64,000 nt of DNA from Hemicentrotus pulcherrimus (taxonomy: Eukaryota > Echinodermata > Echinoidea > Camarodonta > Strongylocentrotidae). The translations under genes and the position numbers were made by a program. The stretch's first letter is position 1; each line of letters opens with the position of its first letter. Below, one piece after another: positions 5,813 to 63,961 of this stretch. The stretch is taken from assembly GCA_003118195.1 (NCBI GenBank), contig BEXV01000831.1, positions 56,057 through 120,056 of the forward strand, given 5' to 3'. The notes under the pieces were generated by a model that did no database searches, was not told the origin of the DNA, and was given only the letters and a program-made list of their open reading frames with translations.

Positions 5813-8800
5813 CTGAGAAACGTAAAAACAGTCAATGATTACTTGATGGCCACAAAAATTAGTACAACAAAGATCAATACCACAAGAGAGAGTAGTTTTA
5901 TAAACCAGTGTGTATCATGTAAATATATTAACATGTTTCATGATTTTTTTTTAATTTAATCAATCATGGATCGAAGCAATCACTATTATCAAACAGGCCA
6001 ACACTAACAATCCACAAGCATTTGAACATCAGTTTGTTCACAATAAAAGCAGTGTCCCAAGTCTGGTGCCAGACAACGTAAAAGACATTTATCAGAGGAT
6101 ATAGACCAGGAGTTTGATTTCTGAGGCTGTAAGCACCATGCACACTATTGATAAGCAGAACAGGCGACTCTAGTCTGAAAGCCTCAAATTAACATTTGCT
6201 GGAACAAAACAATGGACACTCAATTTACATCAAGTTGTCTTCATACAGAAATAGATTCCAAGGTCAACTGTTAGCATGTCCACATCATATTCTCAATCAA
6301 TGCGCACCCTTAGAAATGTAGTTTGACTCCATGCTTTGTGCATGCATGCACATTCAAAACATTCCCTACTGATCAATCTAACAAGTTTGGTAGTCATTCA
6401 GTCAGTCACCTTTATGGGCTCACCTGCTGTGTAGCTGGTGTGGTCTGTTGAGCGGCTCCTTTATTCTGACCCGCTGAAGAACTCTCCTCCTGGACGACCA
6501 CAGTCTGAGAGACCACCATGTGAGCCGGGGACGATTGGCTTTGAATCTGGGCCTGGGCCTGGGCTTGGGCTTGGGCTTTTGCTTGGGCCTGGGCTTGAGC
6601 AAGCTGCTGTGCCTGGACCAGTCTTGCAAGCTGAGGGGTCCTGTTTGGTGTGCTCTGCTGCTGGACCTGTGTCCTAGGAGTGACCACAGAGGTGACCAGT
6701 TGAGTGACCAGCTGCTGGGGTTGTTTCTGAGCTTGAGTCAGGGAGGCCTGCGAGACTGTCACCTTCCCAGCTGATGATAGGACTGCACCTGGGGATTACA
6801 AGACAAATTACAAGACAAATTACAAGTTATTTCCTTTGTCACCACAGTTACACTTGCCAAGGATATGTCCATACGTAAATACAGCGGAACCTTGGTATAA
6901 CGAGGTCCTTGGGACTATGGAAATTACCTGTTATATCAGGGTTTAAAAAAACAAAACAATGTAAAGAGCCGGGACTAGCACAATCACCTTGTCATAACAG
7001 ATACCTCGTTATAATCAGAGCTCTTTCTGACGAGGTTCCACTGCACATCTTCATCAGGTTTGAAGAGCAAAGTTATCTCAACAAAGCCGATACAACTTAT
7101 TTCTTGTTTTTATTGCATCATTTAGTGAAATTATCCTTTAGAGCCCTGGACAGTAATAGATTGCCACTTCATAATTGTTAAAGACTTCATACATACAATT
7201 AACATGACATTTTATCAAAGAAAAGATATAGGAACATCCAAATGGACATTTGAAAATATTCCAGTGGTCACGTGGCTAACCAACTGTTCCCCTAGAAAGT
7301 TTGCATAACTGGCCCATAAGACTTTCGTTTCGTCTTCAGCGACTACTACAGCCGAGCTTTAATAGTTTTCAAAAAATTGCTCATTCAACCTAGCAATTAT
7401 ATCCAATTCTGACTTGGATTAGAGTTCATTCATATTCTTTTCCCACCACTTCACTCTGAGACACATGATGTTTTGCTTGCCTGGAGGTATGATGGTGACC
7501 GGTTTGCCCTGCTGCTGTATCGACAGTGTCTGAGGCACTTGCCTACCTGGTGGAATGATGGTCACTGGTTTGCCCTGTTGTATCGACAGCGTCTGAGGGA
7601 CTCTCTTGACCTGCTGCTGTAGTTGCTGTCTGACGGTTGGCATGGGTTGACCCTGCAGCTGACCGGTCGGTATCCTCTGTACCTGAACGGTGCCCGTCTG
7701 ATGCTGACCTCTGGGTGCCGTAACCTGCTGGACACGAACCTGCTGCCCTCCTATCGTTCCAACCTGAATAATTGAATATTGATTGTGTGAAGTGTTAATA
7801 TCTAATAATCAGCTAAGATAGTCCCCTTATGATCATCGTACAGTCAGGGTATGCCCCTGTTGGACAGTCCTTCCAGATCTACATGCATCTAAGAAGGAAT
7901 TCTTTTACGTTGATAATAACTCTCAGATGGGGCAAGAACAAGAATTTGAAGGAATATGACTTGGTCAGGAGGGTAATGGGCATATTATGGGTTTTTATAT
8001 ATATATATATATATATATACCTTCAGATTTATGTGTGTTAAGCCCTGCATAATTCCGCTGGGGGTTCTTTAAATTCGGAAACTGTTCCAATGGCAGGTAC
8101 TAGCAATTACTTCTATGCTTGTTTTTTTCAATTCACATTATCATTCTCAAAATACTTGTGAAGTCTCAAATTGAAGCTGAACAGCATGTGTGTATCATGT
8201 AGAGAGCCAAAGGACATAGCTGGTTGATTATTACCGAACGTACATCAGTTAGTGCACAGTAAAAGCAGTGTCCCAAGTCTGGTGCCAGACAACGTATAAG
8301 ACATCTGTCTGAGGATATAGACCAGGAGTTTGATTTCTGAGGCTGTAAGCACCATGCACACTATTGATAAGCAGAACAGGCGACTCTAGTCTGAAAGCCT
8401 CATATATTTGCTGGAAATGTTCAAATGTGAATAATGTAAGCAAGTGAAAAGGCTATCATGCAATTGCTTCTGTGCTTGCATCTTAATTCAAATAACAGTT
8501 CTCAATTTAGTTGTTTATGTTTTTATAATAAAGTTGAACAGCATAGACATAACATCCAATGTGCCAAAACTAAAGGCCATAGCTAGTCGATTACGAGCTA
8601 GTCGATTACCAGCTAGTTGATTACCAGCTCGTCGATTACCAGCTAGTTGATTAGAGACCTAGTCGATTACGAGCTAGTCGATTACCAGCTAGTTGATTAC
8701 CAGCTCGTCGATTACCAGCTAGTTGATTAGAGACCTAGTCGATTACGAGCTAGTCGATTACCAGCTAGTTGATTACCAGCTCGTCGATTACCAGCTAGTT

Positions 8801-11800
8801 GATTAGAGACCTAGTCGATTACAAGCTAGTCGATTACCAGCTAGTTGATTACCAGCTCGTCGATTACCAGCTAGTTGATTAGAGACCTAGTCGATTACGA
8901 GCTAGTCGATTACCAGCTAGTTGATTACCAGCTCGTCGATTACCAGCTAGTTGATTAGAGACCTAGTTGATTACAGCTATTTGGTTACAAGCTAGTTGAT
9001 TACCTGCTACTTAATTACGAGCAAGTTGATTACGACCTAGTTGATCTAGCTAGTTGATCTAGCTAGTTGATTACGAGCTAATTGATTTTGAGCTAGTTGG
9101 ATTATGAGCTAGTAACTGCAGCAGAAGTTGCTTTAGACTGATCAGTCATGTCACAGAGCTCTAAATAATCTCCTTCCACAGAGATTGTACGAGAGAGAGA
9201 GCCAATTATAGGGAGCTCCATGATTTAACCTTCGACCTTGATCCCAATCATGTTTATGCATGTATCAGAACTCTCTCTCTCTCTGTACGCCATACTAAAG
9301 CCCAAGTACGACCTCTCATAGCATTAACTGACCTGTTGTAGACTGGCTACTTGTTGAACCAAGGTTTGCTGAGCAGTCTGAGTGCCACCTCGCTGGACGG
9401 TAGCTTGACCTGATGACACCCTGACCTGTTGACCCGAGGTCACAACTTGAGGCTGACCTTGAACCTGAGCAAGGATCTGTAAATAAACAAACAGTTACAC
9501 TTTTATTTCTCCCTACCACATATAGCTTAAAACAAGCCAACGTAAGTGCCGCTCTATTTTTACTAGCAAATTTGCAGGGATTTTGCAGTCGCATGGAAGT
9601 CCGGTTAAAACAGGCAAAACGGTATATGACTCCGACTTCACTGTCAATACGACTAAGATTGAGATAATGGAGTTAAACCTTTCTATAATGATTTAAATTT
9701 ATAAAAAATACAGACCTTTGGTATCTTCCAATATATGACCCTGCTCTAAATTATGAGAAATTCTTAAAAATTACTGACAATACACGCAATCATGGCTTGG
9801 AAAAAGAAGCAACTTTTATTTCAGCGTGCCAAGTTTTTCAGAGAGAACATCTCCAAGTCCTGGCATTTATCAATACTGGTATATTTCTTTCAACTAATAA
9901 ATATGATTTACAAGCTTCTGTTAACAGCAAAAAGTAAGGTTCAGAGAAGTATGGCTGGAATAAATTCTTTGTTGACTTACCAGCTTCTGTTGCTTCATCT
10001 GCAGTATCTGCTGAAGGTTGACCTTTGAAAGCTGTGTCGTCGTGGTCCCTGATCCACCAGCCGTGGGGATAGCAAGAGCCTTCATACCCCCGGCTACAGA
10101 CACCACCTGACCCTTAGCTCCTGCCTGGCCCAGGGTAGTGACACCGGTGACCGTTACCCCGCTGACGGTGATGCCTTTGAGCTGGGTGACAGAGGTGACA
10201 GGGATGGTGGAGATGCCTTTGATCTTCTGGGCTTGAAGCTGCTGCGCTTGGTGGTGCTTCAGTAAGGCAGCTATCTCGGCCTGGGAGGTGTTGAGGGTGG
10301 GACCCTTGCGCTGAGCAAGCTGAAAGAAAGGGGGAGTACGAACTTAAGTTAGACACATAATCAAGACCACAACAACAATGAGAGAAGCTGTTGTTAAAAC
10401 CAGCAAATTTTAACTGACTTTGATATTATTTACGAGCACAAGCACTAGTAAAGATGATAATGATGACTTTGGATTCACCACGATAATGCAACACAGAACA
10501 AGATTCAAAACAAAGGAAAAGTACAGTGATTCCATTTTAAATCAGAATTTATGTAATTCCCTTTTATCTTTGCACTGATAGTTGAATGAGGTATCATTCA
10601 TTCTCAACACTTCTATCTTGATAACCATTGTTCTCACAAGAGCAAAATCAATAGCAAAGGAGGAAGAAAATAAGGTGAGAGACAGAGACATAAAGGGAGA
10701 GAGAGGGGAAAAGTAAGACACGAGAGTCGCACACCTAGACACAAAGAAAAATGGGGGAAGAAAAGGAATGAAACAGTAACGTAAAGAGAGAGATTGGGAG
10801 AGACGAGGAAAGCACACACCTGCTGTCTTTGTGCCTGTGTCAGCTGGACATGAGTGACCCCTGTAATGGCTTGTGTAGTGATCCCAGTAGCCTTCTGGAT
10901 CGTGGTAAGCTGTCCTGAGGTAGCTTGAGCCTGGGCCTGAGCTTGGGCTTGAACTGCTTGGGCCTGGGCCTGGGCTTGCTGGAGCTTCCTCAATTCAGCC
11001 TGGTGAGAGAAAGGGACATGAAATAGGCATGAAGACTATGACATTGGCACTATCTTGTGTGTGTGCGTTATTGGGTTTTTACAAACGTGTATCAATCAGA
11101 TATGATTATTTACGTCTGGGGAGTGACTTTAAACGTCACCATCCAAAAGACGTGACTCAGTTTCAAACCTGCGTCCCCGGCTGAATCACTATCGTGGGGA
11201 AGTCTAAGGTAGTTTAATCTGTAAGTTACAAACTGCATCAAACATTTTAATGTACTTGAAGATTGTAAAAAATTGATATCCCTTTTTAAGAGTTTAAGAC
11301 TAATTTCAAAGACACAATAATTACCAAAGTTAATTTTGTACAGTATTCCATTATATTGTATAATTTATACATGGCACAAATTGACCAAATCTGTAACTTT
11401 TCCTGTTATACACAAATACAATCTTCAAGAAAAGACTGAACAAAATGACTTTATAGATGCCTGAAAGGCTAAATAGCTCTTTGGAGGCTTCAGAGAAAAA
11501 CTGAACGAACATCAGTTTCAATGTTCACAGTAAAAGCAGTGTCCCAAGTCTGGTGCCAGTCAACGTATAAGACATTTGCCTGAGGATATAGACCAGGAGT
11601 TTGATTTATGAGGCTGTAAGCACCATGCACACTATTGATAAGCAGAACAGGCGACTCTAGTCTGAAAGCCTCATACTAAATTTGCTGGAAGTCTTCAAAT
11701 GTAAATAATGTAAGCAAGTGAATGGTAATCATTCAATCAAGTGTCCATTCAAGTTTTTGAAAATTGTAACTTTTATCACACAAACTGAAAAGAGCAGGCT

Positions 11801-14800: not shown

Positions 14801-17800
14801 CATGCAAGGTATGATTTTAAAATATGGCTCTGAGAGTCTCAAGTCATAAAACCTTTGGGAAGTATTTGAAAACTCGAGTAAGTCTCTATTTAAAAGGTCT
14901 CAGAGACGTGATATTATACAAAATCGTGGATTGCGTTGAACTTACAGCTTTTCAGTCTAAACAATGGTAGTTTTCAGGGTTTTTGAGTATTAATACATGT
15001 ACCCATACACATGTTTCATTTAGTTTGAGAATTTTTTAGATCGGCTATTCGCAAAGCTAGCCAATCACTTTAAGGTTTAAATGAAATGGATAACGATAGG
15101 AAAGACATGCTCATATTATACACATGGAGTTGCATTATAGAAAAACTTAAATTTAAATTAATTCCAACTTGTTTAATATTGAGACCTTACATTACACTGA
15201 ATATATGTCTTGTTTGTATCAGGGAAGTCAATAGGGAGCAATAAATACATCTTTCAGAAAAGTACCATGTATTTTTAGGTCTGTGGTTTCTTGTGAGGTC
15301 TGAGGATATATTGTTCATTTGTCACTTATTTCAGGTATCTGCATACATGGCTACTGCTGTAAAATCAGAAAATTTCATGACATGAAACATTTGCAAATCT
15401 GAACCTCTCATAAAATTCACCAACATTCCATGCACTCAAAAATGTCTGACTTATACAGTATTATCTTAGTCCTGTGGATTTCCTACAGGCATTCTTACCA
15501 AGACAGTGGCGCCGGCAGCTGTACCCACTGGCTGGGCAGTCACCTGTGTGGCTGTGCCTTGTTGCTGTGCCTGTTGCTGCTTAGTGGCAGCCAAGAGACG
15601 CTGTTGCTGCTGCTGTTCCTGTTGCAGCTATATATATCGAGAGAAAGGAATATTTAACGGTAAGTCAATGAGCATTGATCACTGAAGCAAGTTAGTCATC
15701 TTGACCTACCCATGATTTTTATATACAAAGAAACCTGTCTATAAAGACCACCCATTGTAGACAAGAAAAATGGTCTTTATAGGCAGATGGTCTTGTTCCT
15801 TTAACACATGTTTCAATGAGAAACCATTTTCAAGGGAAACAAACAATGTGGTCTTTGTAGGCAGGTGGTCACTAATGCAGGTTTGACTGTATCAAGGTGA
15901 CAAAAGGTTTCAACAGACATCGAAACATGACTTCAATTCATTAAAGGGATGGCCTGCTGGAAATCCATGCGTGTTGAATGTCATTCGCTTGTCCTATATT
16001 GCACGCAAATGTGGAGCGATCATTTTGAAGCAGCGAAAAATTAGCGTTGAGGGTGGGGTGGGTTGCTTTCATGTTCGTTATTCTTCGTGTAAATGCGAGC
16101 TGCATAGGGAATTATGTGTCCGTTTTACCGATTATATACGCAGAACCCTGATTACTGTTCGAGTCGGGCCAAGCTCGAAACCACCACGATCAGCGACTTT
16201 CCGATCCCTTTAAGGAGTGATATACCAAGACCCTTGTTGTCTACTCTATTTCATACCAAAACATATCCTAGATTCAATCAATATAGATGCCTGAAAGGCT
16301 AAAGAGCACTTTGGAGGCTTCAGTTTGTTCACAGTAAAATCAGTGTCCCAAGTCTGGTGCCAGACAACATACAAGACATTTGTCTGAGGATATAGACCAG
16401 GAGTATGATTTCTGAGGCTGTAAGCACCATGCACACTATTGATAAGCAAAACAGGCGACTCTAGTCTGAAAGCCTCAGATATATTATATACATATTGAAA
16501 AGATGTCTAACCTTTTTCTCTCTGGCAAGCTTTTGCTGAGCCTGTAGAGCTGCAAGCTGTAAAGAAGAGAAAAAGAAGAGAAAGAGATAATACATATGAA
16601 AACTTAAATCTCCAGGTAAAAAGCAACCTTTTACAATGCATGAGAAAGATTCAATAAGTTCTACAGTGACAGCTTGACATGTGCATGCATGTCAGAGAGA
16701 ATGAACATCCTATCAATACTACTCGACACCTGGGACATACAAATATCAGATTACATTGAACAGGCACGGCAATGGGGCTTTTTAAATGCTACACAATTTG
16801 TTTTAAAGGGATTGGGTATAATCAGACAAGCGTTGGCTTGTAAGCGTCATGGGATTCCTGACTGACCTAAAGGTTTATAATTATGATTGCAGCAGGAGCT
16901 AAATCCAGGATTTTGTTAAGAATCCGAGGCTAAGATACACAACACCTTTAAACAATGTCTATAAGATTTGCTCTTACAGCCATGAGAATTGCTCACAGCC
17001 TTGAAAACAATAAACGCAGCCTTTTCTAGGGTTTACAAAGCTACACTTTTCTATACTACTGTATGTTCTTCTCCACATCAGACACGCACTAAATCTTTTT
17101 CACATGAGACTTCAAGACGCTTGAAACCAGAAGACTTCCATACCTTCTTTTCTCTGGCTATCCTCTCAGCTCTCTTCAGGGCTACTTCGCTGGGTACCAT
17201 AGGCTTGTCATAGTTGATCCCAGACTCGGCCAGTATTGCACTGTGCTTAGGATTCTTCAGCAGTGGGTTGTTTAGTCTGAAAAATAATATCCATATATGC
17301 AATCATATTGCTACTATGGTCATAAACAATACAAAAATAATATTTTTTTGATGTTAAGGCGATTTGTCGCTGGTTCAATGAGACGCATACTTGCAAAAAT
17401 AATATCTGTGATTTATACAGCTCTTTTCCATTTACAAGTGTCCCAAGTCTGGTGCCAGACAACGTATAAGACATTTGTCAGAGGATATAGACCAGGAGTT
17501 TGATTTCTGAGGCTGTAAGCACCATGCACACTATTGATAAGCAGAACAGGCGACTCTAGTCTGAAAGCCTCAAATCAAAATTTGTTGGTTCAATATGCCG
17601 CATGCTTGCAAAAATAATATCTGTGATTTATACAGCTCTTCTTCAATTTACAAGAAATTTATGAAAATGAGAAACTTGTCCAAACTTTATTAAACATCGC
17701 TCACAAAAAAATTATCAACACTAAATTATTACTCTGGTCACAGGACTCAATCATCATTCAGCACAATGCTATGCCTAAGGGAAAACAAGTGGAAAATTAA

Positions 17801-20800
17801 TATACCCTAAAACGAAACCACCAATTTGCTGCCTAAATGACAAAGGAAATCAGCACAATGCTATGCCTAAGGGAAAACGAGTGGAAAATTAATATACCCT
17901 AAAGCGAAACCACGAATTGGCTGCCTAAATGACAAAGGAAACCTGAATAACATGTTACCGTATAGCATTATAAACAACTTACACTTGTTTGAGGAATGGT
18001 TGGCGTTTGTTGATGGCCATCTTGATACCATCAAACTTGGATGAGTAGAGCATGGTATGAGATGAGTTTCCATCCTGGGCATGGAGTTGACTTGACTTCA
18101 TCGGACGATTGTTCTTCGTCTGCATGTAAGACAACATTTGCAAATTAATGACTACGTTTACCAATGCTGCCTCTATGTATCTCTGAGAATGTAAGTACAG
18201 AAACTGTGACATCATTAAAAATCTATTTTTAGAATTTTCCAATTTGAACTTCATTTTCCAAAAGAGCATTAAAAGTAATGTCCAAATGTTGAAAACAAAT
18301 TGAATATGTTAAGCACTAGCTAGGATATGACCATCTGAATAAATAAGAGTTCATTAGGAATCACTGTTATTTTGCTCTGGTTGATAACATTCAGACTTTA
18401 AATGACTTCAGTCCACATTTTCAAAAACAAGAGAAAACTAATCAAGGATGATCAGCCGAAAGATAGTTTGTTTTGGCAAAATCATGACGATAGAGCAGTG
18501 GTATTGAAACCGGGAGGTCCCGGGTTCAAAACCAAGTCAATGCACTGATTGCGCTCGTGCCATTTGGTAAGGCATTTACCCCATTTCCTATCCCCTCAGA
18601 GAGGACTTAAAGCCATAGGTCCCCTGGTTGTTTACTTGTGAGCATATATATGCTTCCTAATTCCACGGGCTTGAAAATGAAAGAAGCATGCTTAAAGTCA
18701 TCCCACATGCACAAGGATACAAGCTACCTGTTAACAAAATACCAGAACAAAGATGGTTTTACTCACACTCACCCTGTAGATACCCTTAGACTTCTTCTGC
18801 TTCTTGGGGTTTGTGTCGTAGAGGATCTTGCCCTCCTCTCTGGGGATGATGACACTCTCGTAGCGGTTGCAGCACTGCTTGGGCGAGCGGAAGGTGCGGC
18901 TGCAGGCATTGACGATGTCACTCACCAGGTCCCAGTTGATGATGTGGCCTGGGACCAGAGGCTGCAGGGTTAAGGGAAGCTCCAGGAGGGTCTGTACCGC
19001 CTGCAGGATGGTAAAATGAAACAAAGACATTCTGTTATATTCTGATACCTTTATAAGCTTTCCCTGTTATAAACAAATAAAATCTGCAAGAAAAGACTGT
19101 ATGAAATGACATAATAGATCCCTGAAAAGCTAAATAATAATAATACAGCATTTGTAATGCCCAATCGATCTAGTATACCATTCTTAGACGCAGAGGGAGA
19201 TTATTACCCTGGCTTTAGCACGGCCGCCATCACGGCGCTCTAGCATTTCAAAGAATTAATTCCTGCCAGGTACCCATTCACATCACCTGGGTTGAGAGTG
19301 GCAAATGTAGATAAATGTCTTGCCAAAGGACATCAGTGCCGCACCGGGACTCGAACCTTGTGATAGCTCTTTTAGGGCTTCAGAGAATTACAGAATGAAC
19401 ATTGGTTTGTTCGCAGTAAAAGCAGTGTCCCAAGTCTGGTGCCAGACAACCTATAAGACATTTGTCTGAGGATATAGACCAGGAATTTGATTTCTGAGTC
19501 TGTAAGCAACATGCACACTATTGATAAGCACAACAGGCGACTCTAGTCTGAAAGCCTCAGATCAATATTTGCTGGAAATGTTCACATATAAATGATGTTC
19601 GCAAGTGAATAGTAATCATGCTCATTTTAACAATACCAGAAATCAGTTTACTCACAACAAAAGCTGCGATGAATTGGGATGGGTATGATCACATAGGAAA
19701 TATCATGCTCATGAATGACTAAACATCTTCAATCTCTTTTGTGTCTTCCTTAGAACACAATTCACTCCTTGTAATTAGTATATCAGGATAAAACGGTCAT
19801 ACAGGTTGCACCATGTCTAGACATACAGGCCAAATATACTAGGCCAAGTCAAATATACTAGAGCGAGTCCAAGGTATTTGGTCATTTTGTGCTGCATACA
19901 GTACCAAGTATTGTGGATACGACACAACGCAAAATGACGCTGATATTTGACCAGGTGGTCATTATAACATCAAAAAATCAGTCCTAGCAAGTGATATCAC
20001 GTGACAAGCTGTGCATCTGTAAGGGGTATCTAATATACTAAAATCTTGGATATGGTTTGTAACGTTACAGGGATCGGCCATTAAAGCCTGTCTGCACTAG
20101 TTTGGCCAGGAGGGATTAGACCTTACTGCACGGTCACTTACAGGTCAAATCAGCTCTCAATTAACACAAGAAAAAGGGGATCATGGGGGGCCAATGGGTA
20201 CCGCTTAGGCATTGTTTGCTATATAGAGGGAGCAAGTAGCTACAAGTAGTGCAGACAGGCTTTAAAACGAGCTGATGAACACAACAGTTTTAGTCTGACC
20301 AAACGTACCTGAAGCAATGCCCAGTCCTCATTGATGAGCCATTCCAGCTTGTCCAGTGAAGTGGTCTCAATGGTCGCGGGTCGATGGACGACAGGCATGG
20401 GCTTGACGACCGGCTTACCGGCCAGAGCACGCATCTTCTGCTGCTTGGCCTCGCGTCGCATCCTGATGAGGGCTGCCGAGGGTCGGTTGAAGAGGGACTG
20501 AGGGGGCGCAGGCAGCACCGGAGTCTGCTGCACGGTCTCTGACTTCTGGTGGTGATGATGGTGGTGATGGTGACCGTGACTCTTGATCTTACGAGCAGGG
20601 ACAACTGCAGGACAGGGTCAAATCATAGGATATCTCTTGAAGATTCATCTTCTTTATATCCAACACAATTTTAATTCACAATGTTCATGAGCTTTTTGTC
20701 TGGACCACTTTTCATCTTAATAATAAGTTAACCAGATGCATTGAATTCATATGAAATAATTGTAAGACAAACTATTAAACATCGTTGCAATAAACACTTG

Positions 20801-26800: not shown

Positions 26801-29800
26801 GATTTTTTTCTCTAAAATTTCAATAAGTCCATGCCATTTTCCACAAACACCCATTATCCATCCCCCTGTGGATGCATGGAGATAATTTGAAGTGTGTATG
26901 TTTTAAGGGTATTTCCATTGGAGCATGTTTGTCCAATCTTTTCTTTTAGTTTTGTTTGTTTGTCTGGAAACCAAGTTGGCGGTGGAATGGACTGAATTAA
27001 AAAAATGGTTATCAAAGCTTCAAAATAACGATATTGCATGTTCTTCATACTTTCATATGTCAAATGGTATTGAATTCTAAGCATCAGCTTAATTTATTTT
27101 TCTTTTTGCTCGTTTCGGTTTCCCTTTCCTGTTCTTAGTCACCAAGCCTGGTATCCAACAAAACACACCACACGCAGACACAAGAAAGACACAACACACC
27201 GTAGTAGTTAGAATTTCTTCACTTGTATGTCAACGCCAAGTTGTTATCTTGTCACGGAAATTTAGATTATCTTCATAATTGTACAAAATTCAACTTTTAA
27301 ACAAAAATATGCAGTTTACATTTGGTAACAAATAATAATAATATCACAAATAAGCAAATTGTTTCAAATATCAATGACTGAGCAATAGACATGACACGCT
27401 TCGGATATGGACAAAATAGAAGTCATCAATGCAAGCTAACAATGCTCCTACCTATGTGTAGAGAAAAATAAATCTTTGCCATATCTATGTATTGTCATCA
27501 ATACAGTACTTTCATATGATTGGTGATCAGGGAGAACTAGAAGCAGAAGCAAGGCCCCTATGTTCCATGTACAAAGCTAGCTGCTAGCTGTCTTGCAATT
27601 AATATTTCACACACTTAGTGATATCTCTCTGGTAACTACTCAGGTGGATTTAACGCTATCCAAGCAATTCACAAACACATTCCGACAAAATTAGTACAGG
27701 TCTAAATGGAATAGTTCATACAATCTGTTGAGTGTGATAACATCTATAAATTCTTTCAAGTGCTTCACTTAAAAACACTCCCCCCAAAAAGTCTCTGAGA
27801 AAACTGAACAATGATTGTGTTCACCAAACGTGCATTGGTGAACATCTGAATGCAGCTCAACTTGGCACTTGGACCAACTAGTACAAAACAAATCTTAACT
27901 TATTAGAATTCAAATTAGAGAAATAAGTCAACTTGTTTCAGCAAAATAACCACCACAAAAAAAAANNNNNNNNNNNNNNNNNNNNNNNNNNNNNNNNNNN
28001 NNNNNNNNNNNNNNNNNNNNNNNNNNNNNNNNNNNNNNNNNNNNNNNNNNNNNNNNNNNNNNNNNNNNNNNAATTGATTTGTTTTATAGGCTGTAAAAAA
28101 TATATTGATGAATAGTTGAATACATTCTCAATACTCTCCCAATCCATAAAAACAGAGATAAGAGAAATGTTTTCAACATTCTCTCCAGATTTGCGTTTTT
28201 GAACCTTGAAGCTGTCAAAAACCTTTCTTTGGAAAGTTCACAAATCATTTTGCCACATACATCCCAACGCACTAGCGTATACATGAGACTGCAAACCTCT
28301 TCAAAGAAAACACATGATTAGAGTTAGGGATTTAGGACCATAATTACACAATTATTACTGACTTCAAAATTGTATCGGAAATCTGGACTGTCTTGAGTCT
28401 GATCAAAAAAGACATGAACTATAAAAAAAAAAATGAAAGTTCTTTCATATGATATCAAATTGTTTCTCCATTGGTACTTGATATTCTTTTCAAATGTTTT
28501 CAAATGTTATCTAGACGGGCCAGATCTATTTATCAGCAATGTGAAAAACAAAGGTTGTTCATGCAAACTGAACCCTGTGAATTATATAAATGCATGTTAA
28601 TTAGACTCAATTCAGCATTAGCTTTGAAATCGCCCCGACATTTCAACTGCATATAATTCTATGTGAACATGGATTGAATGATGTTATGTTGTAAAATGAC
28701 AAGGAGGACCCAGTCCATAACCATGCTGATATCAATGAATGCTCTAAAGGAGTTATACAAAGTTTGGAAGTCAGGTTCTCAGGGTCAAGTAGCTTATTGC
28801 CTTTCTCTACATAAATGTGAGTCATTAAATTGATTGTTTAATAACGAGATGTGCACAGATACAAGAGAACAGACTCATGTATCAATTTACCGATTTGACA
28901 GGGCTCATCTTTGAAAAAGATGACATTTTACACCACTTGTAGAACCTCTGTTCACAGAATCATTGTCTTATTAATACTAGCTAGTTAGAATCAAAATATA
29001 TACTATCAAAGGAGTTAGTTCATGCATTGATGAATGCTTGATATTGCAAGCTCTCTTTGCCTGAACTGGAGTATAATATTATGATAAGAGCTATCATATA
29101 TAGAGACACAGAGGCTGACAAAGAGCTGTAGATTTGGTGCAGGAACAAGGCATTGCATCTCTTTGAAGTATATGTACTTGCAACAGCCTGCAATACAAGA
29201 TGCAGCCATGAAGTTCCTAAGGCCACCCTGTGGTAGGTCGCCTTCGTCAAAATGACACATGATAAGGTAGTGGTGCAGACTTTACACCACCATCTCAAGA
29301 TGTACACACCTTTTCGATCCCATCACTTTGGAAAAATTGCCTTTGGATATTTTCCAGACATACCATGTTCTCACTGCAATGAATGGGGATGTGTTGCAGA
29401 AAGGCAAGAATCCTAGCCAAGAAGGATGGCACAACCTGCAATGCTGAGCAGCAACGACAGGTACCTCAACAGATAACACTAACTTTGGAGGAGTATCAAC
29501 TGACATCTGAAGAGCGCAGTGTTCGCTTCATACTTGAAGAATGGGCGCCTGAATCAGAGTTTGCCGGTCTAGGTGAGCGCTTTGCTCCGATTACCGAAGA
29601 AGATTCAGGAGTCTTCTTGGTGCTGCCCCTTCCGCCGGATCTTGGACTGGCACGCACGGGTGTGGAAACGCTCCCGACATTCGGCGAGGACGAGGGCTTA
29701 ACCCGAGACCTGGTCCGGACGGTATCACCGGTGTTACGAGACCTGGTCCTGGCTGCTGGGGTGTCGATGTCAAGATTCAGCGGCTTCTCGCCAGGAAGAG

Positions 29801-32800
29801 TCAGGTTCATGATTTCCCGTACTCTCCTCGTAGGCTTAGGAGGCAATGATAACTCCATACGCTCCTCTTCACCGTCTTCATTATAGTCTACCTTACTTGA
29901 CAATTCATCCTCTGAACCTTCCACATTTGTTGTCATCTCACCTTGATTACCTCCATCCTCATCATCTCTATTGATCTTACTCAGGTCTAATAATGGAATC
30001 CTTACAAAAACTCTATTTAGCATATTCATTTCACTCGTACTACCCTGTTCTTTGTCCTTATTCTCCTGTTCTTCACCCTTGTCACTTTGTTCTTTGGCCT
30101 CTTCACCCTCTGATTTGGATATATTCTCAGTAGGCTTTTTGACAGTCTCATCGTCACCCTTGTTTTCAACAACCACCTCCTTGATTTCCTGTTGAGTTGC
30201 CACTTCCATCACACCATCAACAGGTTGGGCACAATGCTTGTCAGCCTTGCCATCATTCATTCCCACATTACTCGCTAAGGTTTCTTCTACAGCTTGCTTA
30301 CTGGAATTATCTTTGGTATCAATGACAGGTATGGCCTCGGGACTACTACTATCTATTCGAACATAAGGACTAGAGACAACTATTTCAGGCATTTTCTCCA
30401 CAATTTGTGGTAGTTCTGCCTTTTCTACATGAACAAGGGACTCTGCAGAAAGGACGGGCATTGGTTTTTCCTCTTCGACAGGTTCAGCTTCTTTCAAAGA
30501 TTCCGTTGCCTGTTCAGTGTTATTACTGGATTCCATTAGCACATCTGGAGCTTCACTAGTTGAAGCTTCATCCAGTTTCTCCTCACCAGTGTGTTCCTCT
30601 TCTTCAACCACATTCTTTGTTGCAGAATCTTGATTTACCTCAGAATCTTGATTATCTATTAGAGTTGGACAAGAAGCACTATCAGGAATTTCATTTTCTG
30701 TGTGCAAGGTTTGGTCAACGTTAGAGTCTGTCTGGATTTCTTCTTCAACCACTGGCATTACCTCCGTTTCTTCCATGTCACCCTCTGCTGTTATTGGTGC
30801 ATCATCTACAACTACTTCCATTTCAGTATCCTGTGTGTTCTCAATCTCACAATTCGAGATAACACCAGCATCAAGAGGACCAACATCTTTTGATTCAACC
30901 AAAGGTGCCGCTGTGGGTCCAATGGCCTCGATGTTGGCCGTATCTTGGTCCATTATATTCTCAACCTTGGATTCCTCAGACTCATCAGCCATTTCAGGAG
31001 TGTCTGGAATCATTTCTGGTACTTCATTTCCTTTGGGGGTAATGCCAGAGGTTTGCGGAGTCCTTTCCGGCTCTACCGCATCTGCAATATCATCTTCATT
31101 TTGCTTTCCATCTTTATCTACTGGTACGATACTCAGAGGCATTTCCTCTGGAGCAGCTGCGGGTTGTGGACCTGGTGATTTGTCTACACTGATAACATCT
31201 GGTGTCGATTCTTTGTCTTCTGGTACGATTCTTACAGGCACTTCCTCCGTGGCAGCTGCGGGTTGTGGACTTGGTGATTTGTCTGGTATTGTTTCATCCG
31301 CTATACATTCATTTACTAGACATTCATTGTCCTTGGGAGAATCGACCAACATTTTTGCAACATCATTCTTTTCTTTAACTAATTCCTGTTCTCCTACCAG
31401 TTCATCAACTGTGCTTGATTCAATTTCATTTGCAGAATCAGTCACTGGATGATGATTAATGGATGCAGTCTCTGAATTCGATCTAATGTCGCTGGCATTT
31501 TCTTCATGAGTTGGTAACGATATATCTGGTGCATTTTTCTTCTTGAACTTCTTAGCCAAGTCGGCAAAGAGATTTCTGGTATTGATTTTCTCCAGAACAT
31601 TACCCACAACTGTCCCTCCTCCAGATGCAGGGCGAATGGCATCTTTGATTCTCTCTTTAATTCTCATAGTTGTATCCACAATGTCAAAGATATTACGAGT
31701 CCTTTTCTCTACGTCTTTTGATGCCGACTGGTCATGATCCAGTGTATGGTTCATGTTTTCTGTGTGCAATTTATCCTGTGAATGCCCTGCTATATGATTA
31801 TTCTGCTCACTAGATTCATCAGCTACATCGGTCTGCCACGAGGATGTTTCAACAACAGGTTCTAGGTTTCCACTAACCTTACTTCCCTCCGAAACAGAAC
31901 CGCTTCTTATATGTCTCCTCCTAGATCTGGTTTTGAGATTGCTAAAAATAGATCCCCTATCAGAGCTACGCAATTTTCCTTTGCTCTCTACTCCTGGATC
32001 GGAGCCACTAGACTTCCTTTTAGGTAGAATCCTTTCAGGACTCTTCACACTATCCGCACTTCTAATCCTTGGCCGACCAACAGGACGAGGAGAGACTTTA
32101 CGAGAGGTGTCTTCTTGAGAAGTGTCCCTTCTCTTTTCCCTTTCAGCCATTCGAATTGCCCTGTCCCCACCCCTTGGGGAAGGCAGCCTATCCGACCCAC
32201 TTCCACTACTAGTCCTACTCCTGGTCCTCCTCAACAAGTCCCCGTCCGTTCCCGATGCCCCACTACTAGCCCTACTACGTACTCTTCTAGATTGCCTTTC
32301 AACAGGCGGCGGGGACCCACCTCTACTACTGGTCCTACTACCCTCCCTACTCCCACCACTAGTCCTACGACTCTTCTCTCTACTATCTCTACGAGTCTGC
32401 CGGGTTTCCCGGACACCTTTCTCACCAGTCCCCTTGGACTTTTCATTACGCTTGGTATTCTTGGAACTCTTATGCACCTGATTTTCAGAGTCCTCCCTGG
32501 AGTAGGTGTACAGGACTTCGTCCTCTTCCAGTTCTGCCTCTCGCTCCTCTTGTTCCTTCAAACCTTGGAGTCGACCGAGTTCCCATTCCCTCTTGGCAGC
32601 TTCCACTTGCTCCTGTAAATGTAGATGGAAAAAGGGGAAACACAATACATAGATTTCACAAGAGAGAGGTAAAACAGTTCCATAATTAACACCTCGTTAA
32701 TTCTGAGAATGGATAGGTATAGTAATTCACTTTAAAACTTATTTAAAATGTGTCATTCCATGTTATGCCCGTAACATCTGGTCTGCCATTTTGTGTATAA

Positions 32801-35800
32801 AGTATATGAAATACATTTTACCTACGCGTAGAACTAAGCACACCACATCATCTCAAGATAACTTGGCCTAACAATCTGGAGGGTGCATTTCACTACAATT
32901 TCAAAAAAGTTCAAAAATGGACCGTCATATTCCAAAAATGAATTACATCCAAACAAGAATCCACAATAAAACGAGCGTTATTTTCAAATTAGCATGAGGT
33001 TCAGATAGATAAACGGTTTCGCATCAAGGTTTATCAGAGACTCTAGTCTGTTGAGTTGTGCTATCATCACAACCAAACATGCCATAAATCTGGAAATCTA
33101 GTCACCTAGACAAGAGGGGGAAATACTTTTGAGCTGAGATGGTGACCAAACATCTGCTGCAGCAACATTTGCTACGGGAGGTGAAACAGTTCCGAAATTG
33201 ACAGCTCATTAATTTTGAAAATGGATAGGTATAGTACCTCCTTTTAGAACTTATTTTAAATTTCCCATCTTGGATATTCCTCACGGAAAGTATCTTACCT
33301 CCGCTTCTTTGAGCTGCTCAGCTGTGATTGGCTCAAGGGTGTCCTCGAGGTAGACAACAGCATACCGCTCAATGGGAGTCAGCTATGGTAGAGAGAGTGA
33401 GAGAGAGAGAGAGAGTGAGAGAGAGAGAGAGAGAGATAATGCATGGTTTCATCAGGGATTACAAGAAGGAAATCTGATGAGTTAAAAAGCATTTTATTCA
33501 AATATTTCATTAATCCTTACGGTACATGGTAACTTTAATTAGGGGCTATTGACTATTTATGAGTATTATTCACCATGCTTGAATTTGGAATGTAAAAATA
33601 AAATGCAACATTTTTACTTCACCTTCCAACTTCCACAAAGATGAAGGTTCTATCCTGCTAGTATTATAGCCAGTGCTTAAGTTGATGAATGTTATAAAGC
33701 TATCTTATCTCTTGAAATATTACATTCCTCAATCAAAGTTAAGATATGAAACAACCTTGTGCATACAACTCAGCTACCAGCATATTCCGCAAATGAATTA
33801 CATCCAAACAAGAATGTACAATATGACGAGCATTATTTTCAAAGTTGCTTGTGGTTCAGATAGATAAACGGTTTCGCATCAAGGTTATCAGAGACTCTAG
33901 TCTGTTGCGTTGTGCTATCATCATAACCAACATGCTATAATTCTGCAAGTCCAGTCAGCTGGCGAGAGGTGGAAATATCATCAGCTGAGTGAGAGGTTGA
34001 CCGATATCTGCTGCGACATTTACTACGGGCTTCATTTTGCCAGCGATATACAGTAAGGGATAGGAGACCAATCAAGTTTTAGGGAGGGCTAGCGCTAGGT
34101 AGTGTTTGGTCCAAGGGTTGAAGTAAGCAAGGGAATTGAACGTGGAGCAAATGTGACCAGAGCATGCGGTACAAAACCACAGAGGCTTGGTCATCACCAA
34201 AAACTTGACAAGACATACCTGATTGTCCAGCTGTGTTAGCTCCTTCTCCAGCTTGGAGGACTCGTCGTTGCCCTTGCCCTCCTCTCCCTCGTAAGGTATG
34301 TCCTCGTCAAACTCAGCCAGCTCTGCATCCTGCTCTGCATGTGCCCTGGAGGCTGCTATCACATCGGTGTCATCCTCTGCACGAGCCAAGGCCTGTAACA
34401 GTTCATCATAATCAATAAGTATAAAAAAAGACAATGGTTGAAAAAAGTGATGACGATGATGATGAATGAGACAATTATGATTATTACTGGATGTGTTCAC
34501 ATTGCACATAAAGTCAAACCTGCTAAAGAAACCACCTGTCTACGACAAGCACATTTTATATTAACCTTGAAAATGGTTTCTCATTGAAACATGTTCTAAA
34601 GGAACCACCTGTCTACAAAGACCACTTTTTATGTTTCCCTTGGGAGGTCAATGTAGACAGGTTTGACTGTATCCACCAATTAAGGTGCTCAAGGTGATTC
34701 AATATTAACCTGGCTCTAGCTAGGCTACTGATTTTTTCACCACAGTAAAATAGATTTCATTTTTCTTCCATTTTGCCCGGGATTTCTTCATTACCTGGAT
34801 CTTAGAGACAAACAGAAGCACGTACAGTGACCTAGTAAATCTGCGGAATACTTTATTTCAGATTATGGTTCAGATAGATCAACGGTTTCGCATCAAGGGT
34901 TATCAGAGACTCTAGTCTGTTGCGTTGTGCTATCATCATAACCACCTAATAACTATCATTAAATACTCATTACTAGGGATGCTTTGAAATCTTTAAAAAG
35001 ACAAATACTTTAATCATTCCAATGATAGCCTTCACCTTTTCCAACTCTGTCTGCGAGAGAGGTTTGTCCGCCTTGGCCTCTTGCTCAGGTTCCTTGGGTT
35101 GCTCAGCTTCCTGGGGCTCTGCTTTGTCCACTTCAATCAGGTCATCCAGCATTCCAGCACTCTTAGACACATCAAAGATATCTTTGATGGTATGCTGAAA
35201 AGAAGAAGATAACAGTTACCATCTGCTCCATTTTTCTACAAAATTAATATTCCTAGTCCACTATAATAACAACTGTTCCTTTATTGTAGAGACACATCAA
35301 AGGTATCTTGGATGAAATGCTGAGAAGAAAAAGACGCCAGAGTTACCAACTGCTCCTTTTTTTCTACAAAGTTAATATCGCATGTCCAAAATGGTAAAAG
35401 AACCGAACTGTATCTATATTGTAGAGACAATTTGAATATCTTGGATGATATACCAACAAGAAAAAGACACCAATTACCAACTACTCCATTTTTCTAATAT
35501 AAAATATGATTTGCTTGTCTAACATGGTAAAGAACTGAACTGTGCCAACATTGTAGAGGACACTTCCCTACAGAGCCATTATATGTTGTCTCATCAAAAA
35601 ATGGGTTGGAAAGTAAATCAAAAGATGCTGAATGCTTTAAACTTCACTATCATTTCAGAAATATCAGGAGGGCAATATGACCCTGCTCTATCCATTTGAA
35701 TACTTTTTTCTTTCTTGGAATATATACCTTCTTGAAGAAAGCGGTGGTGAAGTTTCCTCCTTCGATGGAGACATCAATGAGCAGCCTCTTCTGGTTGGAT

Positions 35801-38800
35801 TTCTTCAGGATGTTCTCTTCGATAGACATCTCACTGATCAATCTGAACAAAGACATAGAAGGGCAAAATTTACCTTACCAAACATCTTCTTGTTTTTAAT
35901 TAAACCAAAAGTGACATGCCTTTCTAGATCAAATAACTTGGATTTATAAGGTAGCATGTATTACATAGGCAAGAGCGGTTCAGATATAATAAACGGTTTC
36001 GCATCAAGGGTTATCAGAGACTCTAGTCTGTTGCGTTGTGCTATCATCATAAACATAATGCCTCTAACACAGTTTGCTTGTTTCCATGCAGCTGACCTAT
36101 TCACACAGCATATCTCCAACACTTGTAGTTGTACCTCAGGTGACTTGAAATATGCTCTAGCAACAATCTCTTTGGGCTTTCATTAGTTGGATTAGGTTTG
36201 AAATTTCATTTTCGGTAAGGTTTAGGTATTGCTAAATGTTTGGTCCAATTCAATTACAATTAAATTCAATAATGGTGTTTATCAAGTTCAATGCATCACA
36301 GCTAAAAAGCTGAACTGAGCTTGTTTACATTTTCATGAGTACATATTTCACATGACTTCATACACATCCAGGGTTGAATTTAGAAATTTGGTTTGTGTAG
36401 GCAACCGAACAATGAGTAATTGTCATCAGTGGATGCATAATAGAACCAGACCTGAAGCAGTACTGACCAATCAATCAGGTAGAGTGTTCACACTGACCTG
36501 TATATATGTACGTCCCTGGTCTGACCGATGCGGTGACATCTGTCCTGAGCCTGAGCGTCCATGGTCGGATTCCAATCACTGTCGTAGAAGATGACCGCAT
36601 TGGCACCAGTCAGGTTAACCCCCATTCCACCGCTACGCGTTGACAGGATGAAGCAGAAGATACGAGGGTCCTTGTTGAATCTCTCCATCATTATCTGATA
36701 TTGTGAGCAAGAATGAGTATGGACGTTTAGTCTATGCAAATGTTATGTGAATGAGGCACAATTGAATTTTAGATTAACAGGGAAAGCCCATGCTGATGAG
36801 CTTGCACTTCTTACTTTATGCTTTAAGATTTAGCACAAAGCTGTACACATAGGCCTCATCACACCATTGAATAACGTTATCATCCTGGTTTTTTGTTTAT
36901 ATGATAACATACACCTAGAATCAACAGTGCTTTCTCAACTTCATCCAAAGGCACTAACCTTAAAACTTTAAACTTGTGAATCTCTATCACCATATTTACA
37001 TTCTGAACCACAAAATCAGGGAAGGTAAGATTAAATTTCTCATTAAATACTGAAAGTTACATGTTAAACTTGAATAGTGATACAAACCACAGATCTTTTC
37101 CCTATTCCAAATGAAATATCAAAGAGTTGACATCAATCGCAACTTTATTGATATCAATCACAACTTTGTACATAAGAGATGGGAGACTGCAACTTGCAAT
37201 TGATTGGAGGACTTGCAATTGATTTGGATCAATCGCTACTCTTTGTAAGACAGGGCCCAGGTATGCTGCATTTATGTCAGCAGTGTCACATTCCACATTG
37301 GTATGACTGGCTTCTAATCTTACCTGTCTCTGCTCTACTTTGGTTGTACCGTCCAGCCTGAGGTAGATATGCCCATGGTAGTTGAGGAATCGTTCCAGGA
37401 TGTCCAGCATCTTGGTCATCTGAGTGAAGATGAGTACCCTGGAGCCCTCCGTCTTCAGCTTCCTCAGTAACACGTCCATAGTCTGCAGCTTACCTGTAAA
37501 GACACATCATGACCAAAGCTTGACTATTTGTTGCTTACCTGCACACAACAGAGCCATCAATATACAGAGTTTGGCCAACTTGGTTTCACTGGGTAACAAC
37601 ATGGCTCAGTGTTTTGTTTCTGCTTGCCAACAAAGCAGTAGTCGCCATATTGTGTCCAACTCGAACCGGGTTGGCCAAACTCTTGTGTATAGATGGCTCT
37701 GGCACAAACAGCCCCCTCACCCCATCTCTGGTATAAAAGGTCTCTGCTATGAATGGTGGGCACAAAACTCAATCTTAATAGATGTTGAGAGTAAAAGTAT
37801 CACTGCATACTCTGTTTGCTTTGAATGACATTAGATTTTTTTTTTTTCATCAATATTCTTATTAGGGATGCAGCCATGTACAAGTTTCTCAAACTTTATG
37901 TTGCATCCCCAGACATGTTTGATTAGTAACTGTGTCTAAATAAATAATACAAATACAATATTATGCAAACTAGATGACTCTGGAGGTCACTCATTGGCAT
38001 AAGCATCTCTAAAGCATGGTTTTATTATTGACTTTTATTATTAAATACATACAGAAATATAACAAGGCATCAACAGTGCTTCAGGAATTAGGTAAATATA
38101 CTTATACAAAATGTCACGTGAGTTCTCAATTAATGCTACGAAGCATCTTAGGGTTTAATATGACAAGGCATCTTTATGCATAATGTAGCAGTTAAATGTG
38201 GTTTGATATTCTCACAAAGTATAATATAAAGTATATAACAAAATTCATAACCAATATGACTAAGGCAATAACAGACAAGTAGCATGTGGTTCAGATAGTA
38301 ATAACGGTTTCGCATCAAGGTTATCAGAGACTCTAGTCTGTTGCGTTGTGCTATCATCACAACCAACATGCCATAAATCTGGAAGTCCAGTATTCCCTGG
38401 ACAAGAGGGGGGAAATATCTGCTGTACTTACCACAGTCATATTGGATGAGTCTGAGTTCTGGCATGTCCAATCTCATGAGATTCTCTATAGGATGTAGGC
38501 ACCATGACTTGGGTTTGAGTTCAGATGACAGCGTGTCCACCAGGATTCGTTCGCTGTTGAGCACTGAAGGCGGAGTATGGGATGTGTGCATTGTAATGAG
38601 CGGTGCCGTCACAACAGGAACCACAAAGGTGTACCTGATTAACACAAAGAAAAAGAAGTTTTAAACAGAAGTTCTGACTCAAAATCTCACCTCAAAGATC
38701 TCCCTATAGTTCATTATACAAATATTCACTTATAAATATATCCAGTTATAAATATATTACATGAATTGTAAAATTAACTGCTTAACTGTAAATTGTAAGA

Positions 38801-41800
38801 ATATGCTCTTTAATATTTCACAGCCAGGATCAAGTCAGAAGTTTCAAACAGTCCATTATGTTGGCTATTGCTGCTAAATGTGTAACTATATCAATGTGTC
38901 ACAAATTAACCAGAAGCACATGACATACTTGTCCTATTTGATCAGCATTGAAATTGAACATCTCCAAGCATCGTCTTCTCAAGAAAAAACATTTGGCACA
39001 TATTAAGTATTTCTGAGGAATTACAAGGAATATTCAGGCAAAATAATAATAATTACAGTGCTTATATAGCGCGTAACACTTACATTGTCAGAAGTCTCTA
39101 AGCGCTCTACAATAATGCAGCATAATTACCCTGGCTTTAGCAGTGCAGCTGTTACGTTACGTGCGCTGCGTTTCAAGGAATAAATTCCTACCAGGTACCC
39201 ATTTACTTCACCTGGGTGGAGTGTGGCAAATGTAGATCAATATCTTGCCAAAGGACATTAGTGCAGCGGCAGGACTCGAACCGCGGACCTTGTGATTGAC
39301 AGTCCAGCGACGTATCCACTCGACCACAACACCTCTACCTTCACTTGTGACCTAAATCTGTTGACTTGTCATTACATTAAATGATAGGGAACATACATGT
39401 ATATGACATTATCACCAATAACAAAGAATTATTTTTTTTCACAAATAAATGTCTAAATTCATTGTCCAGCATACCTTTTGTTAATCTGCTGCAGCTCCTC
39501 CAGATAGTCCTCTGGGGTATGGAGGATACTCCTGAGGTTTCTCGTCTTCTTGTATGCCACCTCCACCCTTCTCAGTGCATCCCCTATAAGGGCGTGATAG
39601 CAGTGGACATTACCCACGCCGTTGCTGAAGGGTCTCCTCTTACCAGCAGGTTTGGAGGTATGGTAGAGAGACACGGCCGTGAAGAGGTCTTGACCGTACA
39701 CAGGTTTGGCACTGCAGCGCTGCTGGTTGAAGGTAGCGATGCGAGAGAGACAGGCCTTGCGATCATCGGCTCTGGCTTTATCTAGGGATTCCTGGATAGA
39801 TGAGACATACAAGACTTGGGGTTACACACCTCGATTACACTGAATCATTTCATCATTCCTGGTCCCGGTCTTATGAACTTATATACTCCAGGTAGGATGC
39901 GACTGTCATTGTTGGTCAAACAGTTTTTGAGCGTCAAGTAACGCCCGACTGGAATGCTACCCAAGGAGTGGAGATTGAACACACAGTGTGTGGGGGCAAG
40001 CACTTAATCAAATAACCGGGGTCATAGTATATCTGCAAAGTGCTTAGAGACATTGTATTTAGCGCTATATAAAAGCTGAATATTGTTACATGAGAGATAT
40101 CGGACCGCAAACTTGTGATTGATTTGGATCAATTGTAACTCTTTATAAGAGAGGGCCCTGATGTAGCAGCAAATGATTTTGATACCAGTCTACCTTGTTC
40201 TTACAATACACTGAATGGACAACAAATGTTTCCCATCCTGAGGACCACATGGAGCAGATTCACATGAACCACATGAAGCTCCGGCGGCTCGTGTGTGGGA
40301 ACATTATCTTGGCCAGGACAGTTGGAATTCAGTAAATGTGGTTGAACTGAGCCAAGTGCCCCGGCCTGAGCTCTGTACATACCAGAGCTACCGTGAAACA
40401 AAACTTTGAGTATGGCTAACACACTTATCATCTTTCATATAGGAAATGTAAGTCTTTTGTGGTATATGAATACTTTACTAGATAGCAAACTGACCGAGTT
40501 GGTTAAATATATTATCAAAACCATGTGTGGAAAAAAGAGGAAGGAAATAAGTGTTTGTACTGGGTACATGTGTACATGCATGAATAAGGATTACAAGGGC
40601 CGTTTACCAGATAAAGCGGTGATGATTTCCTTTTCTTTTCTGCTTTCTTGAACTTCTCAGCTGCTTCTTTCAATTCTCTTGATTCTTTGGACTCCTCCTT
40701 TACTGTGGACACTGCAATGATATAAAGATAATACTGTTTTCTATATATTCCAAACATCTTCATTCTCCCCAATCGTCACCATCATTATTAAAGTTCTCTG
40801 AGGAGTAAATATATACATATAATGCTTTCTGACACAGTTATAGTGAATGGGAGCCTAACCGATCCAATATTTTAAATGTTGAAAACACAGTTGTTAACTG
40901 CTTTGTTAAAGCTGGTTCAATCAAAGCACCTTTAAAGCCACTTCGCAGAAGATAGAAGAAAATTATATTTAATGTCTCTAGTGTCAGAACTTTTACTTCA
41001 AAATATAGCTTTGCGTTAAATGTTATCAGTGCCTACGCTTTAACATATCCACATTATGATTCTATGTTAGACACTTTCTGAACACATGCATGAGGAACAC
41101 AGAGCATTCAAGATGACTATGAAAAGGGTAAATATATTGAGAGAATGACATGCATTAAGGCTAAAGATGATGTGCGCATGAAATGAAAGCAAGCTGTGCA
41201 AAGATGAAGATATATTGGAAACATTGCAGTCAAAAGAAATGGACACCTCACCAATCAATCTGTTCGAAGACATAAAAGAGCAAAATGTACTTTGCCAAAC
41301 ATAATTTTGTTTAAAAAAACAAAGTGCCTAGCATATCTGGATCAAATACCTGGGGTAATAATATGTGCCGAGCCTAGAAACAAAGTATTAGGTGCAATAT
41401 AAATGTGAGCTATTATTATTATAATGTATTACATAGGCATGAGAGTGGTTCAGATAAAATAAACGGTTTCGCATCAAGGGTTATCAGAGACTCTAGTCTG
41501 TTGCGTTGTGCTATCATCATAACCGAAATGCCTCTTACACAGTTTGCATGATTTCCTGTAGCTGACTTCACAAAGCACATTTGCTACAAAGTAATAGCCT
41601 ACAATGCCCAATTTGCAGCAACATCGCAACATTTCTGTCGATAAGCTTTTTATGCAGTAACACAGCGATACATTCAGTGACTTAGGTTGCAAGCACCATT
41701 ATTCTATAATCAAAAGATTTATTGTATTCATATAGATAAGGCAAGAAGGAGCTGATAGGTGATCATTGGAAGCACAGAATTCTTCCATTCTGAACGAGGT

Positions 41801-63607: not shown

Positions 63608-63961
63608 CTGTAAGAACAAATGCACAGAACAGATGTTAATTTAAACTCATCAATAATACAATGTATTCATGACTTGTCAACTAAACAGAGTACATCACAT
63701 GCTGCTAACTTTTAAAGTAAAGATACGTTTTTTCTTGTTGGATATTAACAATAAAAAGGCATGGATGTTTTGGTGGGAGATATCAAAATGATTACTCTTG
63801 ACATGAGAGAATGTTTTGTGAAAGAAAATATTTTTGACTTCTGTTTTTAGACCAATTTTTTTTACATTCAAATGAGAGAATAATAAAATGTATGAATAAC
63901 TGTAGGTTGGGGAGTGTGTACATGTCAGTGGCTAAGATGGAAGTGAAGGTTCTGCATAGGA

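Follow-up and report, generated by a model that had tools for sequence, protein, structure and literature searches.

Two classes of small nucleolar RNA (snoRNA) guide act on one short segment of the large-subunit (LSU) ribosomal RNA (rRNA). In yeast 25S rRNA, the available passages of PMC8307265 assign pseudouridine (Psi) 2416 to snR11 and the 2'-O-methyluridines (Um) 2417 and 2421 to snR66 and snR78, respectively, and mark Psi2416 and Um2421 as common to human. Um2417 adjoins Psi2416, being the second U of CUUGACU (PMC8307265, available passages). In human 28S rRNA, Psi3899 was found at 100% and Um3904 at 96% (PMC6182160, in part), and SNORD52 is given as the guide of Um3904, alternatively numbered 3925 (PMC5597630, in part). 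Guidance of this segment by both classes, H/ACA and C/D, is the known state in yeast and, judging from the Rfam consensuses, probably also in vertebrates. The stretch of DNA described here, referred to as the window, is contig C830:56057-120056 (64,000 nt; BEXV01000831.1) of the 414-Mb assembly of the sea urchin Hemicentrotus pulcherrimus. The COX1 frame of this animal has in-frame TGA at 13 of 479 codons and AAA for Asn at conserved positions, as in the echinoderm/flatworm code, which we take as the mark of an echinoderm. The window contains an H/ACA-like family (family A) and a C/D family (C/D 1) that carry the same 12-mer, CAGACTAGAGTC. With a probability of about 0.9, these elements are intronic multi-copy guides for two neighboring LSU rRNA modifications, family A directing a Psi and C/D 1 a Um.

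Host genes with several paralogous snoRNAs in their introns are known from insects, nematodes and some vertebrate loci; one narrow literature search for such a multi-copy host gave no paper, which says little. The new element of the present locus is the nine plus six copies in a single gene of the SRCAP/EP400 type, accompanied by two further H/ACA-like families; the guide pair itself is already known. Since both guide classes of this segment had been described, the finding is less surprising than the initial annotation of the window had it.

Two snoRNA-like families with a common 12-mer

The sequences, boxes, box-to-arm spacing, strand and best target in the scanned part of 28S rRNA were all computed. 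Family A is an element of 137 nt that reads hairpin, AAATCA, hairpin, ACA. The H box AAATCA (ANANNA) and the 3' GGGACA are found in 9/9 copies, as is the start of the right guide arm 14 nt ahead of the H box. The lower stem is intact in seven of the nine, and the other two have one internal and one terminal mismatch. C/D 1 is an element of about 77 nt that reads ATGATGA or GTGATGA, CTGA, TGATGCG, CTGA; the C box RUGAUGA, the D' and D boxes CUGA and the C' box UGAUGCG are all present in 6/6 copies, and a terminal stem GGTT/ACC is present in five. The guide CAGACUAGAGUCU stands immediately before the D' CUGA in every C/D 1 copy and is identical to the Rfam SNORD52 consensus (RF00276), which contains the same CAGACUAGAGUCUCUGA. 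All six copies match the whole SNORD52 model. A weak match to C/D 1 was likewise obtained with the snR66 model.

The exact 12-mer occurs 14 times in the window, 14/14 on the minus strand. Read in context, eight matches lie in family A and six in C/D 1, which is the distribution that the initial annotation had given for eight complete A copies and six C/D 1 copies. When up to two mismatches were allowed, 15 matches were found, against a mean of 4.45 and a maximum of 9 in 100 shuffles. The span first annotated, 6050-41524, includes six of the eight complete A copies but leaves out copies 7 and 8 (Table 1). A ninth copy straddles the window edge, with its guide at C830:120134-120145. Sequence models of the two families give the same counts (family A, eight in the window and one split by its edge; C/D 1, six) and revealed no further copy at E <=1 in 91,881 bases of the contig. 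A run of N at ~54.7-55.1 kb within the host gene, which may be an assembly gap, appears as X in the translations, and snoRNA copies there would escape.

Genome-wide, 36 exact 12-mers were counted, of which 15 are in this contig. None of the remaining 21, read by eye, is in a 28S context, and the family A model had no match at these 21 loci. The C/D 1 model gave scraps at two of the loci picked for the 12-mer, L003 (14.3 bits) and L015 (9.8 bits), which were judged to be chance. This look-up elsewhere in the genome covered loci with the exact 12-mer, so that copies with an altered guide could escape it.

For two unrelated cores of the lengths of family A and C/D 1, the expectation of a common 12-mer is 0.0005. 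It is this coincidence, together with the complementarity of the 12-mer to a strongly conserved 28S segment, that is improbable. The invariance of the guide had also been stressed; it is real but unexceptional. Invariant columns make up 120/134 of the family A core (eight complete rows; the truncated ninth left out) and 65/72 of the C/D 1 core (six rows), and the probability that 12 columns drawn at random are invariant throughout is 0.25 and 0.26, respectively. Invariance was therefore rejected as special evidence.

An identical and contiguous 12-mer could in principle have come from common descent of the two families or from gene conversion between them, instead of from a common target. This is barely credible, because the two families cease to resemble each other on either side of the 12-mer, close to the limits of the rRNA complementarity, and because the Rfam consensuses of SNORD52, with the whole 12-mer, and of SNORA3/45, with CUAGAGUC, represent separate families. 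The two guides would instead have the 12-mer in common because each must pair with one and the same rRNA segment, and not through kinship.

Predicted rRNA targets of the two guides

The target scan was carried out on the 3' part (1750 nt) of the 28S rRNA of another eukaryote, not of this species, here called L025 (BQJP01000067.1). The sequence matches the LSU model RF02543 with an E value of 1.2e-248. Its record is titled as a bacterial metagenome-assembled genome, and the eukaryotic 28S part in it is probably contamination. The other of the two contig matches to the rRNA patterns, L026, had no Rfam match at the gathering threshold, and a scan of viral contigs with the three patterns found nothing. 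The complementarity to 28S rRNA that the initial annotation had given is borne out by both references: the segment is present in L025 and, as UUGAGCUUGACUCUAGucuGgc, in the RF02543 consensus, where it is in upper case up to CUAG and reads in context ...CCUgUUGAGCUUGACUCUAGucuGgca.

Duplex energies were calculated as summed stacks, with the family A pocket bounded by GCC/GGU. Hairpin 1 of family A forms 13 bp on the left and 5 bp on the right around U442 of L025, with -32.5 kcal/mol. This is the best site; the next reaches -13.3, the shuffle mean is -8.3 and the best shuffle -18.4, and 0/200 shuffles reach -32.5. In this duplex the target base of the pocket is the first of the two central uridines in GAGC-UU-GACUC, just as had been predicted from the window by itself. 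The D' guide of C/D 1 also finds its best site at this segment, with -27.4 kcal/mol against a shuffle mean of -19.1 and a best shuffle of -26.5 (0/200 as good). Its fifth base from D', with one unpaired U beside D', selects U447, which is the U of GACU named in the initial annotation. U442 and U447 are five nucleotides apart, and the spacing noted there for yeast Psi2416 (snR11) and Um2421 (snR78) is the same (PMC8307265, available passages). The two guide classes had further been placed on one rRNA helix. They do fall on the same segment, but, as we read the secondary structure given for RF02543, the Psi site belongs to one helix and the Um site to the next, and a single unpaired G separates these helices, so that "one junction" describes the position better.

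The U selected by C/D 1 is equated with human Um3904, and the U located five nucleotides upstream with Psi3899, by guide identity rather than by an alignment of human 28S rRNA, because the SNORD52 guide and D' box are identical letter for letter. For family A, the nearest described family is SNORA3/SNORA45 (RF00334), to which one copy gave a full-length match (model 1-131 of 131, 22.4 bits). The RF00334 consensus has CUAGAGUC in the pocket region of hairpin 1, at the same place as the family A guide, and, as we read it, a distance of 14 nt separates the start of its right arm GCU from the H box. When the pocket edges of this consensus were fixed by hand, its best site in L025 was again U442, with 11 + 3 bp (without shuffles). 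Family A is, as far as its sequence tells, a SNORA3/45-like guide that would work like SNORA3/45, and is not filed as a member of that family. In the passages of PMC6182160, PMC5597630, PMC13201660 and PMC12288042 that were available, which cover the literature in part, neither SNORA3/45 nor any other RNA is named as the guide of human Psi3899.

It is very improbable that in one of the families the 12-mer acts on a different RNA, for instance a messenger RNA or a folding site of the pre-rRNA, and not in rRNA modification. With a scan confined to L025, there is some room for such a use on 18S rRNA, the 5' part of 28S rRNA or other RNAs. However, the arm position in family A and the D' spacing in C/D 1 both land on uridines that match sites modified in yeast and human, according to the passages available.

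Several results weigh against reading the two families as guides of these rRNA modifications. Both fall short of the Rfam gathering scores: C/D 1 reaches 23.6-30.0 bits for SNORD52 (six copies; gathering 45), and the best family A score for SNORA3, 22.4 bits, lies below 51, with E 0.014 in 181 bases and E 5 in the window. At E <=5, the window scan with SNORA3 lists one of the eight complete A copies, and a copy of another family, B (described below), scores higher (23.7 bits), so that the SNORA3 score does not single out family A. The folding energy of all three A copies that were folded is close to that of shuffles (z -0.01, -0.32 and 0.37), and the free fold pairs the guide partly with the right arm. 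The GCC/GGU pocket appears, at -13.1 and with the 14-nt spacing, when both guide arms are held unpaired; a rival pocket with another upper stem, which pairs the last guide base and lacks the 14-nt spacing, is found at -13.4. A two-sided change supports 1 of the 39 predicted consensus pairs. Copy A19539 (copy 6) has lost a lower-stem pair and refolds, and C/D 36019 (copy 4) has partly lost its terminal stem. On the target side, the C/D 1 duplex exceeds the best shuffle by 0.9 kcal/mol, hairpin 2 of family A gave no convincing target in the scanned 28S part (without shuffles), and the species' own 28S rRNA across the target GAGCUUGACUCUAGUCUG was not found in the assembly, either among the 12-mer matches read by eye or with L025 as a DNA query. 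Folding stability was rejected as evidence for family A, with z ~0 in 3/3 folded copies.

With L025 as the query, the assembly yielded four short fragments that resemble 28S rRNA (79-96% identity). One of these, L027 (G000:C139:59435-59507), is a 73-nt fragment, 96% identical to L025, in unrelated AT-rich DNA. It reads ...CCCTGATGAGCTT and then departs from rRNA; the rRNA part breaks off precisely after GAGCTT, immediately short of the guide target.

Copy number and host gene

The mean pairwise identity of the cores is 96.6% for family A (nine copies) and 96.2% for C/D 1 (six copies), and all 15 copies, including the ninth A, lie on the strand of the host gene; related copies are not independent in this count. 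It has to be asked how many of them work. Most may be recent non-functional duplicates, with one or two functional copies per family and the others decaying. The broken lower-stem pair and refolding of A19539 and the weakened terminal stem of C/D 36019 agree with this, as do flanks that are still duplicated in some A copies (8233-8464 vs 11500-11737, 90.0% over 239 columns). In contrast, the 40-nt flanks on each side have a mean identity of 33-38% over all pairs, compared without gaps, whereas the cores stay at about 96%; none of the nine A copies has lost the guide, the boxes or the 14-nt spacing, and none of the six C/D copies the guide or the boxes. Widespread decay is thus considered unlikely, though it carries some weight. 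Recent gene conversion could equally give conserved cores, and selection is not proven by them.

Table 1. Guide copies and recognized host-gene blocks, in window positions.
Feature	Position	Strand	Guide or remark
H/ACA family A copy 1	6050..6186	-	guide 6166-6177
H/ACA family A copy 2	8266..8402	-	guide 8382-8393
H/ACA family A copy 3	11537..11673	-	guide 11653-11664
H/ACA family A copy 4	16341..16477	-	guide 16457-16468
H/ACA family A copy 5	17436..17572	-	guide 17552-17563
H/ACA family A copy 6	19423..19559	-	guide 19539-19550; one lower-stem pair broken, possibly decaying
H/ACA family A copy 7	59596..59732	-	guide 59712-59723; beyond the span first annotated
H/ACA family A copy 8	61073..61209	-	guide 61189-61200; beyond the span first annotated
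H/ACA family A copy 9, 3' part (L010)	63962..64000	-	remainder and guide (C830:120134-120145) past the window
C/D family 1 copy 1, SNORD52-type	32998..33074	-	guide 33039-33050
C/D family 1 copy 2	33853..33928	-	guide 33893-33904
C/D family 1 copy 3	34867..34943	-	guide 34908-34919
C/D family 1 copy 4	35977..36054	-	guide 36019-36030; 5' flank GTTT vs GGTT in the other five, hence a weaker terminal stem
C/D family 1 copy 5	38288..38364	-	guide 38329-38340
C/D family 1 copy 6	41447..41524	-	guide 41489-41500
Host gene, SRCAP/EP400 (taken as domino-type)	18734..63635	-	recognized blocks; probably longer at both ends
Host block EP400_N	within 62559-63635	-	Pfam
Host block SNF2	within 52182-52502 and 49508-49903	-	Pfam
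Host block Helicase_C	within 37105-37506	-	Pfam
Host block EP400-like exon	within 18734-19066	-	EP400 match

Among the ten reading frames given to Pfam, four had matches, all on the same strand: EP400_N, SNF2 (twice) and Helicase_C. The helicase exon resembles SRCAP (145 bits) more than EP400 (41 bits), and the EP400-like exon gave 82.5 bits with EP400. The EP400_N block had no match in the PDB. With the blocks for EP400_N, the SNF2 helicase and an EP400-like C terminus following one another in order along the same strand, we regard the host as an SRCAP/EP400 gene of the domino type, domino being the name for a gene of such mixed SRCAP/EP400 nature. In a crude splice-site scan, 13/14 copies had a candidate exon no more than 1500 nt downstream, and CD41489 had none. 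Together with the coding blocks, this suggests that the snoRNAs lie in introns. A literature search for EP400 together with SNORA49 gave no paper.

Other repeated elements were observed in the same region; families B and C and the two conserved elements that follow them here are on the minus strand. Family B, a second H/ACA-like family, has five copies (43411-43543, 47628-47760, 51893-52025, 53090-53222 and 56860-56992) with the boxes AGAATA and ACA, read by eye; one copy scores 23.7 bits for SNORA3 and one 26.2 bits for SNORA18, both below gathering. Family C, a third, has three copies (50854-50990, 55965-56103 and 60296-60432). Neither B nor C gave a convincing target in the scanned 28S part (without shuffles). 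A conserved element of 60-80 nt, without clear C/D or H/ACA boxes, is present in four copies (45333-45408, 46723-46803, 48709-48785 and 49371-49429), and one of ~270 nt, with possible hairpins and ACA by eye, in two (58071-58342 and 58857-59119). Beside family A copy 2, a tandem array (8507-9113) consists of the 15-base unit AGCTAGTTGATTACC and variants of it.

Proposed function and comparison with known systems

Intron processing, an open pocket, modification at the two sites, its order and the guide dosage are what we infer for this locus. By the usual route of snoRNA maturation, splicing and debranching of each intron would be followed by trimming to a ribonucleoprotein (RNP). In family A, the hairpin 1 pocket would direct dyskerin to pseudouridylate the first U of GAGC-UU-GACUC (yeast Psi2416, human Psi3899). 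C/D 1, as the counterpart of SNORD52/snR78, would recruit fibrillarin for 2'-O-methylation five nucleotides downstream, at the U of GACU (Um2421/Um3904). Since both duplexes cover the same 12 rRNA nucleotides, the two RNPs would be mutually exclusive on one pre-rRNA and would have to act in turn. The nine plus six copies most likely raise the dosage of guides from a host whose transcription would be modest beside that of the ribosomal-protein genes that usually serve as hosts.

A further thought is that both guides were amplified in one host so that a single transcript fixes their ratio and thereby sets the order or balance of the modifications. We regard this as distinctly doubtful; if true, the balance of Psi and methylation at an rRNA junction would be tied to the output of a chromatin remodeler. 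Apart from this, the locus links two conserved rRNA modifications to predicted guides in an echinoderm, and would be a naturally occurring example in which two guide RNPs, both expanded in one transcription unit, have to alternate on one stretch of 12 nucleotides. Once both modifications exist, a common complement in their guides is expected, and the general interest is modest.

The closest described system for C/D 1 is SNORD52 and its yeast counterpart snR78, the latter compared by target rather than by sequence. C/D 1 has the same D' guide followed by CUGA and the same predicted Um. It differs from SNORD52 in its six copies, in its position in a SRCAP/EP400-type gene and in a longer stretch between the C box and the guide; human SNORD52 presumably resides in a different host gene. 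Family A shares with SNORA3/SNORA45 the hairpin 1 guide and the predicted target U. However, its hairpin 2 looks unlike that of SNORA3/SNORA45 by eye, it is present in nine copies and its antisense element is longer (13 + 5 vs 11 + 3 bp). Yeast snR11, likewise compared by target and not by sequence, guides Psi2416 (PMC8307265, available passages), the site predicted for family A. With the multi-copy intronic snoRNA hosts, the locus has in common the paralogous guides in what appear to be successive introns, all on the host strand; it differs from them in that two guide classes with overlapping predicted targets are amplified in one chromatin-remodeler gene.

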